Shown piece after piece: positions 5,469-32,115 of a stretch of 32,646 bases of DNA. Every line of letters starts with the position of its first letter. The first letter of the stretch is position 1. A program made the position numbers and the translations under genes. Location: NCBI RefSeq assembly GCF_019599295.1, contig NZ_JAIEWN010000051.1:5475-38120 (forward strand), read 5' to 3'. Under the pieces are notes generated by a model, which worked only from the letters and a program-made list of their open reading frames with translations, was not told the origin of the DNA and ran no database searches. The stretch is from Oscillochloris sp. ZM17-4 (GTDB taxonomy: Bacteria > Chloroflexota > Chloroflexia > Chloroflexales > Chloroflexaceae).

Positions 5469-5484
5469 AAGATTGCCCCTTGAA

Positions 5485-5568
5485 TTGCAGATTGCAGATT
5501 GCAGATTGCAGATTGCTGGTTGCTGATGCGCTGCGCCTCTACCCTGTGCCCTATCCGCTGTACCCTGG
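5485..5568. repeat. Composite heptamer array, in-phase decay from TTGCAGA to ACCCTGT type
   Basis: Read on the plus strand, four exact TTGCAGA units (5485-5512) are followed in strict 7-nt register by TTGCTGG, TTGCTGA, TGCGCTG, CGCCTCT, ACCCTGT, GCCCTAT, CCGCTGT and ACCCTGG (5513-5568). On the sense strand of serA the clean part reads GCAATCT and lies directly before its ribosome-binding site. The array fills almost the whole gap between the gmhA stop (5571) and the serA start. Confidence 0.85.
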
Positions 5569-7620: not shown

Positions 7621-7626
7621 TCACCT

Positions 7627-7664
7627 GGGGGTTGGGGGTTGGGGGTTGGGGGTTGGGGGTTGGG
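7627..7664. repeat. G-rich heptamer array (GGGGGTT)x5 + GGG
   Basis: Five exact GGGGGTT units plus GGG on the plus strand. The six G-runs separated by TT make a strong G-quadruplex candidate. Read toward the sigma gene it is (AACCCCC)n. In its alternative rotation, TTGGGGG, it fits the TTGNRKR frame shared by all arrays in the window. Confidence 0.95.
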
Positions 7665-10257: not shown

Positions 10258-10443
10258 AGAGTAGGTACGCTTTATCTAATCAGAAGAGCACACGTGTAGA
10301 AGGGCACACGTGATGATCGGTGTCGGCGCGTGCTCAGGGTGAATGCACCCATGAACAGGCGCAGTATACCGCATACGCATAGCGCGCCCGCAGGGTAGGT
10401 GCTGGCTTTTGGTTGTAGTAAACGCGGCCAAGTGTTGCGGTGG
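10258..10443. other. Intergenic stretch between prfC and the ISL3 scar
   Basis: No gene is supported. It contains the tandem 16-bp repeat described separately and a somewhat AT-richer stretch at 10360-10435. Frames entering it from the transposase remnant are out of context. Confidence 0.5.
10282..10313. promoter_or_regulatory. Two tandem 16-bp repeats with CACGTG cores upstream of prfC
   Basis: AGAAGAGCACACGTGT (10282-10297) and AGAAGGGCACACGTGA (10298-10313) are adjacent direct repeats differing at two positions. Each holds a palindromic CACGTG core. They lie 25-56 nt before the prfC start codon, where a promoter or operator would be expected. The binding factor is unknown. Confidence 0.45.
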
Positions 10444-14406: not shown

Positions 14407-14470
14407 GAATGCTGAATGTTGAATGTTGAATGGTGAATGTCCGGCATTCACCATTCAACATTCAACATTT
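14407..14470. repeat. Two-armed heptamer array (GAATGTT type) with TCCGG loop
   Basis: The left arm (14407-14439) reads GAATGCT, GAATGTT twice, GAATGGT, GAATG. The loop is TCCGG. The right arm (14445-14470) reads CATTCAC, CATTCAA twice, CATTT. The variant unit GAATGGT in the left arm is mirrored by CATTCACCATTC in the right arm, so the pairing is kept where the repeat varies. It spans the gap between the ilvA stop and the SEDS start. Confidence 0.95.
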
Positions 14471-14474
14471 AAAA

Positions 14475-15704
14475 TTAAAACTCGGCCACGTCCCGCTGGC
14501 ACGTGTAGCCCGCCTCGGCCATGCGGGCGATCACCGCCTGGGCGTGATCCTCGCCGCGTATCTCCAGCACCAGCTCGACGCCGACCTTGGTGACGGGCAG
14601 GTGCCACTCGGCCCGCCGGTGGAAGACCTCGACGATGTTCGCGCCGGCGGCGGCCACCGTGCTGATCAGGCGGGCCAGGTTGCCCGGCCAGTCCTCGACG
14701 ATCGTGCGCAGCAGCAGGTAGCGACCCTGGTGAACCATGGCCGTCTGCAGCACCCGTGTCAGCAGGGTCGGGTCGATGTTCCCGCCGCACAGGATGGTCG
14801 CGGCCGTCTCGCCGGGGCGCAGCCCGACCTTGCCGGCCATCAGGGCGGCCACGCCGGCGGCCCCGGCGCCCTCCACCACCAGCCGGCTGTTCTGGAGCAC
14901 GTGGGCGATCGCCAGCACGATCTCGTCCTCCTCGACCGTCACCACGTCGTCCACGAGCTCGCGGATGATCGGCAGGGTCAGCTCGCCCGGCCGCTTGACG
15001 GCGATGCCGTCGGCGATGGTGTTGGCCGCGCTGGCGCTGACGGGCTGGCCGGCGCTGAGCGATGCGGGCACCGGCGCGCAGCCGGCGGCCTGCACGCCGA
15101 CGATCCGCACGTCGGGGCAGAGCGCCTTGATCGCGATGGCGATCCCGCCGATCAGGCCGCCGCCGCCGATCGGCACCACCAGCAGGTTGATCCCCGGCAG
15201 GGCCTCGGCCAGCTCCAGGCCGATCGTGCCCTGGCCCGCGATCACCCGCGGGTGGTCGAAGGCGTGCAGGTAGGTCAGCCCGCGCTCCTGCTGGAGCATG
15301 CGGGCGTGGGCCACGGCGTCGTCGAAGCTGGCCCCGTGCAGGATGACCTCGGCGCCCAGCCGGCGCGTGGCGACGACCTTGGTCAGCGGGGCGCGCTCGG
15401 GCATGACGATCACGGCCCTCACGCCGGTGAGCTGGGCGGCCATGGCCACGCCCTGGGCGTGGTTGCCCGCCGAGGGCGCGATCACCCCGCAGGCCCGCTC
15501 CTCGGCGCTCAGGTGCATGATCGTGTTGTAGGCCCCGCGGATCTTGAACGACCCGCTGTGCTGGGTGTTCTCGGCCTTGTACCAGATGGTGGCGCCCAGC
15601 TCGGATGAGAGGCGCGCGGCGGGCAGCAGCGGCGTGGCGATGATCATGTCGCGCAGGGTGCGCCGCGCCGCCTGGATGTCTGCGAGGGTGACGGGTAGGC
15701 TCAT
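14475..15704 (-). CDS. ilvA: Threonine ammonia-lyase with ACT domain
   Basis: This PLP enzyme deaminates threonine to 2-oxobutanoate (isoleucine precursor or threonine catabolism). The product is 409 aa, the short form. PLP Lys54 is in SGSFKIRGA, the phosphate loop is PIGGGGLIGG, and SAGNHAQGVA is the substrate loop. A single C-terminal ACT domain (about 330-409) begins YLLLRTIVEDWPGNLARLIS. The single ACT puts it between catabolic TdcB and long biosynthetic IlvA, so the symbol is tentative. ATG at 15704 or 15710; the extra upstream codons in the frame are heptamer repeats. Neither start has a Shine-Dalgarno site, and the array arm touches the 15710 codon. Confidence 0.94.
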   Translation of the reverse strand: MSLPVTLADIQAARRTLRDMIIATPLLPAARLSSELGATIWYKAENTQHSGSFKIRGAYNTIMHLSAEERACGVIAPSAGNHAQGVAMAAQLTGVRAVIVMPERAPLTKVVATRRLGAEVILHGASFDDAVAHARMLQQERGLTYLHAFDHPRVIAGQGTIGLELAEALPGINLLVVPIGGGGLIGGIAIAIKALCPDVRIVGVQAAGCAPVPASLSAGQPVSASAANTIADGIAVKRPGELTLPIIRELVDDVVTVEEDEIVLAIAHVLQNSRLVVEGAGAAGVAALMAGKVGLRPGETAATILCGGNIDPTLLTRVLQTAMVHQGRYLLLRTIVEDWPGNLARLISTVAAAGANIVEVFHRRAEWHLPVTKVGVELVLEIRGEDHAQAVIARMAEAGYTCQRDVAEF

Positions 15705-15710
15705 ATACAT

Positions 15711-15779
15711 AATGTTGAATGCTGAATGCTGAATGTTGAATGCCGACATTCAGCATTCAACATTCAGCATTTAACATTA
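15711..15779. repeat. Two-armed heptamer array (GAATGTT/GAATGCT) with CCGA loop
   Basis: The left arm is 15711-15742, the loop is CCGA (15743-15746), and the right arm is 15747-15779 with CATTCAG, CATTCAA, CATTCAG, CATTTAA, CATTAA. GAATG cores pair throughout; the 2-nt linkers pair fully or as wobble at most positions. The outermost right unit contains the stop codon of the 69-aa gene. Confidence 0.93.
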
Positions 15780-19003: not shown

Positions 19004-19037
19004 GCAATCTGCAATCTGCAATCTGCAATCTGCAATC
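19004..19037. repeat. Single-arm heptamer array (GCAATCT)x4.9
   Basis: Four exact GCAATCT copies plus GCAATC, followed by AATAAGGAG, the ribosome-binding site of yghZ. The layout matches the glmS leader: sense-strand GCAATCT, then AAGGAG, then ATG. Confidence 0.97.
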
Positions 19038-20833: not shown

Positions 20834-20834
20834 T

Positions 20835-20906
20835 AATGTTGAATGTTGAATGTTGAATGTTGAATGCAGCTACGCATTCAACATTCAACATTCAACATTC
20901 AACATT
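20835..20906. repeat. Two-armed heptamer array forming a perfect 32-bp hairpin
   Basis: The left arm (20835-20866) is AATGTT plus three GAATGTT and GAATG. The loop is CAGCTACG. The right arm (20875-20906) is four CATTCAA plus CATT. The two 32-nt arms are exact reverse complements. The array begins 1 nt after the SDR stop codon and ends 43 nt before the S9 peptidase start, which has its own AGGAGG site. Confidence 0.98.
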
Positions 20907-20949
20907 GGGTGCAACACCTGCGCGATCCTGACTATCCGAGGAGGCTCCC

Positions 20950-28312: not shown

Positions 28313-28388
28313 AAATGTTGAATGTTGAATGTTGAATGTTGAGTGTCCGCATTCAGCATTCAACATTCAACATTTAACATTCAACATT
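28313..28388. repeat. Two-armed heptamer array with TCCG loop
   Basis: The left arm (28313-28345) is AAATGTT, three GAATGTT and GAGTG. The loop is TCCG. The right arm (28350-28388) is CATTCAG, CATTCAA twice, CATTTAA, CATTCAA, CATT. It fills the 87-nt gap between DUF58 (its stop codon lies in the last unit) and the BatA-like gene. Confidence 0.95.
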
Positions 28389-29271
28389 ATCTCAGCACGC
28401 CGCGCCTGCGCATCTGCGAGAGCACAAACTCATCGACGGGGACGGAGGTATCGACGGCCAGGTAGCTCATGCCGCGCCCGTTGCAGAAGCTCTCGATCTC
28501 CTCGCGCCAGCGCTCCAGGCCCTCGCGGTAGCGCTGGATCAGGCCGATGTCGGCGCTGATCTCCACCGGATCGCCGCCCTCCACATCCACCAGCGTAAAG
28601 TCGCCGTCGAGATCGGGGGCGATCTCCTGGGGCGCCAGGACGTGCATCACCGTCACCTCGAAGGGCCGCGACGAGAGCGCGCCGAGGGCCTCCTTCCAGC
28701 CGGGGTCGAGCAGGTCGGAGCAGAGCAGCAGCGGGCCGGGGGTGCGCGCCGTCTGCATGTAGGTTCGGCAGGACTTCGCCAGGTCGCCGCCCTTGCCGGG
28801 CGCGAGGCGCTGGAGGAAGCTGAACAGCGGGATGGCCCCGCGCTTGCCGCGCACGCTGGGCATGGGCACGGCCTGCGGCCCCGCGCCGAAGGCGCTCACG
28901 CTCACCCGGTCGAGGTTGCTCAGGGCGATGTAGCCGTAGGCGCCGGCCAGCCGCTTGGCATACTGCAGCTTGTTGGGCGCGCCCCAGTCCATGCTGGCGC
29001 TGGTGTCCACCAGCAGGTGGACGCTCAGCTCCTCCTCGGCCACGAACAGCTTCAGGTAGAAGCGCTCGGCGCGGGCGTAGAGGTTCCAGTCGATCTGGCG
29101 GATGTCATCGCCGCTCGTGTAGGGCCGGAAGTCGGCGAACTCCACCGACGAGCCGCGCCGCGGGCTGCGCCGCTCGCCCTGGATGTCGCCCGCCATCGCC
29201 CGCCGGGTGAGGATCGACAGATTGTCCAGCTTGCGGATGAATGATGATTCGAGGAGGGGTTCGGTGGTCAT
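28387..29271 (-). CDS. DUF58 domain protein
   Basis: A 294-aa soluble protein of the DUF58 family found beside MoxR ATPases. The core signature is FADFRPYTSGDDIRQIDWNL (about 46-65), followed by a VWA-like fold with a DxSxS segment (LLVDTSASMDWG). The N-terminal half also contains RRAMAGDIQGERRSPRRGSS, the basic stretch before the core. It likely cooperates with MoxR in folding or activating a membrane complex; the exact role in Chloroflexota is unknown. The ATG at 29271 has GAGGGCAT upstream. A 24-bp hairpin lies between it and MoxR. Confidence 0.92.
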   Translation of the reverse strand: MTTEPLLESSFIRKLDNLSILTRRAMAGDIQGERRSPRRGSSVEFADFRPYTSGDDIRQIDWNLYARAERFYLKLFVAEEELSVHLLVDTSASMDWGAPNKLQYAKRLAGAYGYIALSNLDRVSVSAFGAGPQAVPMPSVRGKRGAIPLFSFLQRLAPGKGGDLAKSCRTYMQTARTPGPLLLCSDLLDPGWKEALGALSSRPFEVTVMHVLAPQEIAPDLDGDFTLVDVEGGDPVEISADIGLIQRYREGLERWREEIESFCNGRGMSYLAVDTSVPVDEFVLSQMRRRGVLR

Positions 29272-31975: not shown

Positions 31976-32115
31976 AGTGTTGAGTGTTGAGTGTTGAGTG
32001 CCTCAGAGGCGGAGCAGGCAGCACCTTGTCGGTGTCTACACTGCTTATTGTCAAGACGTAGCGCTTAGCCGTAGGGTTCCATAACTCAACACTCAACACT
32101 CAACACTCAACACTC
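31976..32115. repeat. Two-armed heptamer array (TTGAGTG) with an 84-nt loop
   Basis: The left arm (31976-32000) is AGTG plus three TTGAGTG. The right arm (32085-32115) is CTCAA, three CACTCAA and CACTC. The arms are 84 nt apart, unlike the short loops of other arrays. The loop reads TTGACA on the minus strand at 32050-32055, a possible -35 for the operon, without a good -10. Confidence 0.93.

Follow-up and report, generated by a model that had tools for sequence, protein, structure and literature searches.

Why should a variant unit in one arm of a repeat array have its exact complement in the other arm? The question is raised by a two-armed array of heptamers at positions 14,407 to 14,470 of the window (the whole stretch of 32,646 nucleotides that was analysed), which lies on contig C130 of a 6.69-Mb genome, G000, that is 98.6 % complete. 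On the plus strand the left arm (14,407 to 14,439) reads GAATGCT, GAATGTT, GAATGTT, GAATGGT and GAATG, its five GAATG cores spaced by 7 and the GGT variant adjoining the loop. The 5-nt loop TCCGG (14,440 to 14,444, no strand assigned) is followed by the right arm (plus strand, 14,445 to 14,470), which reads CATTC, ACCATTC, AACATTC and AACATTT and is the reverse complement of the left arm, GGT/ACC included. Five GAATG cores stand against four CATTC-type cores across TCCGG, and the linkers, counted outwards from the loop, are GT, TT, TT and CT on the left and, when reverse-complemented, GT, TT and TT on the right. Folded on the minus strand, the array forms 25 bp of stem without a mismatch around a 5-nt loop (-37.5 kcal/mol, z -9.5). 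A preliminary description of this DNA had stated that the GAATGGT unit beside the loop has its exact complement in the other arm, and this was confirmed, GGT facing ACC within 25 perfect pairs. The TCCGG loop recurs in arrays elsewhere (L005:16158, L119:10070 and L161:8979). A search of the window against Rfam gave no match to any described RNA family.

This array occupies the interval from the stop of a PLP-dependent enzyme gene to the start of an FtsW/RodA gene, two genes that lie on the minus strand. The FtsW/RodA/SpoVE gene (PF01098, 13,028 to 14,401) is directly downstream in transcription order. The PLP-dependent enzyme gene (PF00291, threonine ammonia-lyase-like by our own reading, 14,475 to 15,703) lies between this array and a second one at 15,710 to 15,779, and its protein is 94 % identical to that of Chloroflexales bacterium ZM16-3 and 86 % identical to that of Candidatus Oscillochloris fontis. 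The second array (loop CCGA, no strand assigned, z -8.2) fills the gap upstream of the PLP-enzyme gene and is half mirrored, with linkers TT, CT, CT, TT against CT, TT, CT, TT; the partial mirroring with swapped linkers noted earlier for this array, then placed at 15,711, was found again, positions 3 and 4 mirroring each other and positions 1 and 2 being swapped. Its orthologue in ZM16-3 has an identical loop. The PLP-enzyme gene probably starts near 15,703, the called frame running into the array at 15,710. The arrays at 15,710 to 15,749 and 28,313 to 28,366 are free of stop codons in a reading frame (peptides MLNVEC and FNIQHSTFN), and because three units make 21 nt, gene starts are easily extended into such arrays. 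Two further two-armed arrays, likewise without assigned strand, were found at 20,834 to 20,907 (loop CAGCTACG, all units TT) and at 28,313 to 28,389 (loop TTGAGTGTCCG, a single CT unit beside the loop on the right arm only).

Heptamers are common in this DNA. Exact tandem repeats of at least 20 bases in 433 kb comprised 73 of period 7, 13 of periods 8 to 11 and none of periods 4 to 6, and those of period 7 belong to several families (GAATGTT, ACAGGGG, GCAATCT, AACCCCC and AACACTC), so that the exact tandem repeats of the genome are almost only of period 7, regardless of their letters. One cited suggestion is that a polymerase grips a stretch of 7 nt (PMC4679880). Within the window, GCAATCT repeats occur at 1 to 49, 5,484 to 5,527 and 19,004 to 19,037, a TGGGGGT repeat at 7,626 to 7,664, and an AGTGTTG repeat at 31,976 to 32,000 together with 32,084 to 32,115. 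Among two-armed GAATGTT arrays in 1.22 Mb, the GAATG arm came first in 39 of 39 and a CATTC-first order in none. The two-armed array at L005:4677-4859 shows a strong one-sided expansion: its left arm has 20 units and its right arm only a few, and the left arm of its G005 counterpart has about three. At 10,282 to 10,312 of the window are two near-copies of AGAAGAGCACACGTGT, 3 mismatches away from a common sequencing-adapter stretch (0.08 matches expected by chance), which may be a trace of the assembly or of an adapter, or an accident.

Two-armed GAATGNT arrays with loops of up to 12 nt were found in 5 of 400 Chloroflexota genomes, with 90 pattern matches per strand in G000, 48 in G005, 13 in G196 and 3 each in G001 and G003, a multi-unit array matching the pattern more than once. 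These counts indicate that the unit is common in the two sister species and scarce in other genomes. G005, the second of these, belongs to the same genus as G000, has flanks about 89 % identical to it, is also rich in arrays, and is probably ZM16-3 or close to ZM16-3. The arrays listed for G196, a member of another family of the Chloroflexota (contigs C35, C238, C283 and C345), are uniform, with GAATGAT on both arms, the same GAATG core and another linker.

The mirroring could be a coincidence, with common CT units happening to fall opposite each other in arms of shared composition. The preliminary description had proposed looking for covariation of unit variants across many two-armed arrays, and units at equal distance from the loop were compared in 73 two-armed GAATGTT arrays from 1.56 Mb of G000 and 0.70 Mb of G005 (the whole census covers about 1.6 Mb and 0.7 to 0.96 Mb, respectively). 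The covariation was found. In the 37 arrays with loops of at most 6 nt, 24 variant units were mirrored against 8.15 expected when arms were swapped between arrays (p<1e-4), and against 17.7 expected when the order was shuffled within an arm (p=0.003); leaving out the arrays of the window itself, the short-loop count was 22 against 7.3. About a third of the mirrored variants (8.2 of 24) is therefore what coincidence alone would supply, and most of this expectation comes from CT, the commonest variant (about 21 % of units), so that a single mirrored CT proves nothing and a mirrored GT (about 5 % of units), as at 14,407, carries weight. Rare variants, neither TT nor CT, were mirrored 10 times against 0.62 expected. 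Short-loop GAATGTT arrays thus show changes that match, in register, the complement of the other arm, and for them chance is refuted; as a general account of the mirroring it is extremely improbable.

The mirroring is not general. In the short-loop GAATGTT arrays themselves 38 of 62 variant positions are unmirrored; with loops of at least 7 nt mirrored units were not significantly above chance, and a lag-tolerant test allowing a shift of one unit gave 5 against 2.9 expected (p=0.10), so that long loops may have a weak effect. In the GCAATCT family the 11 short-loop arrays had 15 variant positions, of which 1 was mirrored against 1.6 expected, and here chance is the preferred account; the other heptamer families had too few arrays for the test. 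The lack of mirroring in the GCAATCT family means that copying between arms is not evident in all heptamer palindromes, or happens too seldom to be visible in that family.

Another account holds that each array was born symmetric by one fold-back insertion and was never copied again, the mirrored variants being remnants of that event, gradually lost through mutation and slippage. The slot upstream of the PLP-enzyme gene is in keeping with such births. It was without a strong hairpin in O. fontis and in three other genera (G008, G009 and G013), the two genes overlapping as ATGA in O. fontis, and in G000 and ZM16-3 it contains a palindromic insertion without evident target duplication, which in ZM16-3 fits between GGGGG and ATGAG with no duplication needed. 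Many unrelated perfect hairpins at shared slots agree with it as well, and some of the mirroring signal is explained by symmetric birth with later decay. Orthologous arrays with the same loop and species-specific states on both arms are contrary to it. In L212:4402 of G000 and L156:14458 of G005, which have a common CGCG loop, G000 carries TTGCATG as the third unit of each arm and G005 carries TTGAATA there, again on each arm, a difference of two double changes within one unit. In L089:16951 and L159:8047, which have a near-identical long loop, the right arm has AG in both species and the left-arm mirror AG is present only in G000 (the register was read by eye, counting a partial unit inside the loop). 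Orthologous same-loop arrays thus have changed both arms in concert, and birth without later copying is doubtful as the whole explanation. The pairs L002/L190 and L219/L203 have changes on one arm only, from which it follows that the process would be intermittent.

Loops have also been turned around between the species. At oC95t0 37767 the loop is GCGAAGC in one species and GATTCGC in the other, with 25 of 26 pairs unchanged; at oC95t40000 16962 it is TTC against GAA, together with 3 double changes; and in the array L106:4817 against L168 it is TCA against TGA. Two or three such inversions are convincing, and eleven homologous loops have the same orientation. An automatic call of a further inversion at oC1t200000 7091 was dropped, as the two hairpins there are not homologous. 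The hairpin at oC106t80000 20356 has undergone three or four A-T/G-C double changes and is left with zero mismatches.

The GAATGTT arrays form a single sequence type in a wider class of intergenic hairpins found at gene 3' ends. Genes were called with a simple home-made codon-usage caller, which gave 1,927 of them over 2.29 Mb (86 % coding), and a strong inverted repeat was defined by a score of at least 14 with ungapped stem detection. In G000, strong inverted repeats were present in 44 to 46 % of tandem gaps longer than 60 nt, in 50 to 72 % of convergent gaps of at least 20 nt and in about 18 % of divergent gaps longer than 60 nt; shuffled gaps gave 0 of 300, against 104 in the same real gaps. 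In tandem gaps the hairpins begin at a median of 5 nt past the stop codon. Perfect stems made up 230 of 324 non-heptamer hairpins with a score of at least 16. A U-tract (at least 6 T in the next 10 nt) followed none of the 89 heptamer hairpins and 6 of the other 230, so the set shares the 3'-end position of classical intrinsic terminators and mostly lacks their U-tract.

This position is an argument for selection on RNA pairing, in which a transcript hairpin (a terminator, 3'-end stabiliser or processing site) would fix compensatory mutations so that variants mirror. Hairpins lie near gene 3' ends (tandem about 45 %, convergent 50 to 72 %, divergent about 18 %), their slots are conserved while the sequences are replaced, and the stem at 14,407 is perfect over 25 bp. 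The mismatches that remain in stems tell against it. RNA selection should favour G.U, and among 390 tandem-gap hairpins oriented by their genes the transcript strand had 278 G.U and 291 A.C, with no preference for G.U. Loops are not oriented to the transcript either: in non-heptamer hairpins the triloops GC(GAA)GC and GC(TTC)GC were found 25 and 21 times on the transcript strand. The oligonucleotide d(GCGAAGC) forms a DNA mini-hairpin of unusual stability, and together with the strand symmetry of GAA and TTC this points to DNA. The inverted loops, the several base pairs changed together without surviving intermediates, and the rarity of a U-tract weigh on the same side, and selected RNA pairing is an unlikely cause of the mirroring. 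DNA cruciforms may have been selected, rather than arms copied, and such selection would likewise give equal G.T and A.C mismatches. Between the two causes offered in the preliminary description, selected pairing and fold-back copying, the concerted arm changes and inverted loops speak for copying, and the equality of G.U and A.C speaks against pairing selected in RNA. Taken together, the changes between orthologues, the inverted loops, the equal mismatches and the symmetric triloops favour fold-back copying.

More surprising than the mirroring is that hairpins keep their position while their sequence is replaced. Gaps of G000 were mapped to G005 through both flanks, in essence a comparison of one main species pair. 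For orthologous tandem gaps, a hairpin was present in both species in 57, in G000 only in 31, in G005 only in 9 and in neither in 97 (OR 19.8, p=3e-17); 35 of the 57 shared slots had no 9-mer in common, and when only such unrelated pairs were counted the association persisted (OR 12.2, p=1e-10). Many G005 regions had been chosen for holding arrays; contig C1, which was taken whole, gave OR 11.2 (p=2e-7), or OR 14 (p=6e-7) without any GAATG array. Convergent gaps showed the same tendency, which was not significant because few convergent gaps lack a hairpin. Flank identity was 89.0 % for replaced and 89.1 % for kept hairpins. The replacements were of one heptamer by another (GAATGTT and GAAGGCT, GAATGTT and CAAAATG), between a heptamer array and a plain stem, and between plain stems. 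Orthologous gaps in which a GAATGTT palindrome corresponds to another heptamer (GAAGGCT, CAAAATG) or to an unrelated stem include L012:13563/L194:3829, L220:8265/L165:8924, L123:931/L161 and L212:8269/L156:9641. The slot between the PLP-enzyme gene and ftsW holds the GAATGTT array in G000. In ZM16-3 it is occupied by another array, rich in GAATGCT, and in O. fontis and in G008, which belongs to another genus, by stems of unrelated sequence, one of 16 bp in O. fontis and one with 25-nt arms and a GTA loop in G008; no strong hairpin was found there in G013. A hairpin family of G000 (for example L113:2152, L116:19215, L019:6588 and L011:11147) has a constant outer stem, GTAGGGCCGAAGCATT, and an inner stem that differs in each copy and is perfectly paired; the inner part looks rewritten yet still palindromic.

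Dispersed families with common ends and loops, such as the repeated TCCGG and the largest cluster of 81 hairpins, in which GTAGGG...CCCTAC ends are common, would be expected if array and loop spread as a unit like a REP element, through a Y1 (RAYT) transposase or similar, with the mirrored variants copied along. However, no Y1_Tnp (PF01797) gene was found in the 98.6 %-complete G000, although G002 to G005 have matches; each rare mirrored pattern occurs at one locus only; and clustering of 353 hairpins from the sampled sequence left 115 singletons, the largest clusters having 81, 47 and 24 members. Such mobility is very unlikely to explain the mirroring. Loss of the hairpin nuclease SbcCD was considered as a reason why palindromes survive and was rejected, since sbcD was present in 6 of 6 genomes tested.

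We return to fold-back copying. The feature at 14,407 is an intergenic palindrome of head-to-tail heptamers able to form a hairpin, probably kept symmetric by template switching, the hairpin itself probably being kept by selection at gene 3' ends; this reading is drawn from comparison of sequences and is held with moderate confidence. A replicating single strand would fold into a hairpin, and the 3' end of the growing strand would copy the opposite arm (intra-palindrome template switching, or quasipalindrome correction), so that one arm is replaced by the other's complement. Point mutation and slippage of entire heptamers would then wear away the symmetry until copying next occurred. Since hairpins of unrelated sequence occupy these slots in related species, selection would keep the hairpin rather than its sequence, in a role like that of a terminator or at the mRNA 3' end. 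We infer both template switching as the agent and the 3'-end role as the reason why slots persist. More tentatively, these Chloroflexales may possess fixed hairpin slots at gene 3' ends in which a hairpin is required and its sequence is free, while a replication-based process repeatedly writes new perfect palindromes, as heptamer arrays or unique stems, and re-perfects old ones; mutation would then supply the symmetry and selection only the position.

Template switching is known to be able to form hairpins, to preserve them and to invert their loops (PMC8794818, PMC8604942), and quasipalindrome mutations are described in Escherichia coli (PMC7202029). The arrays resemble these cases (PMC8794818, PMC8604942, PMC7202029) in that one arm appears rewritten to the complement of the other with several bases changed at once, in the inverted loops and in the short stable loops; they differ in being inferred from natural variation in tandem-repeat palindromes, whereas the known cases come mainly from E. 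coli reporters, yeast and rRNA or microRNA genes. The P6b stem-loop of the trnL intron of Nostoc and Calothrix also has two paired arms of 7-nt repeats, in which the heptamer class (Class I TDNGATT, Class II NNTGAGT) is swapped in place and the stem-loop kept (PMC4476775). That is a single intron position in cyanobacteria, whereas arrays of the 14,407 type are at many intergenic sites between protein genes, not in a trnL group I intron, and non-repeat hairpins also act as replacements. Heptameric repeats at many loci are known from Xanthomonas and Nostoc (PMC4692102), Beggiatoaceae (PMC4679880) and, as (GATAGRA)n satellites, Chloroflexus aurantiacus (PMC6749651), and are mostly intergenic in the first two reports; in the parts of these sources consulted they are described as direct repeats, with G-quadruplex or regulatory ideas or as satellites, and not as two-armed palindromes with mirrored variants. 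GTAG-tagged REP elements (PMC3733652) are likewise short intergenic palindromes, and many members of the largest hairpin cluster start with GTAG or GTAA. The GAATGTT arrays differ in having no GTAG tag at the foot, where their ends are typically TAATGTT...AACATTA, and in the lack of any RAYT-type gene found in G000. As strong hairpins downstream of stop codons they are like terminators without a U-tract, classes of which have been described in a study that omitted the Chloroflexi for want of RNA-seq data (PMC8355165); termination by the hairpins described here is putative.

If this reading is true, copying of DNA can yield compensatory-looking covariation in bacterial hairpins, which need not then mean selection on RNA, and this would bear on the use of covariation to claim RNA structure. 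These Chloroflexales, whose genomes contain scores of arrays where those of close relatives contain few or none, would also offer a natural system for measuring template switching and the turnover of hairpins at gene ends.
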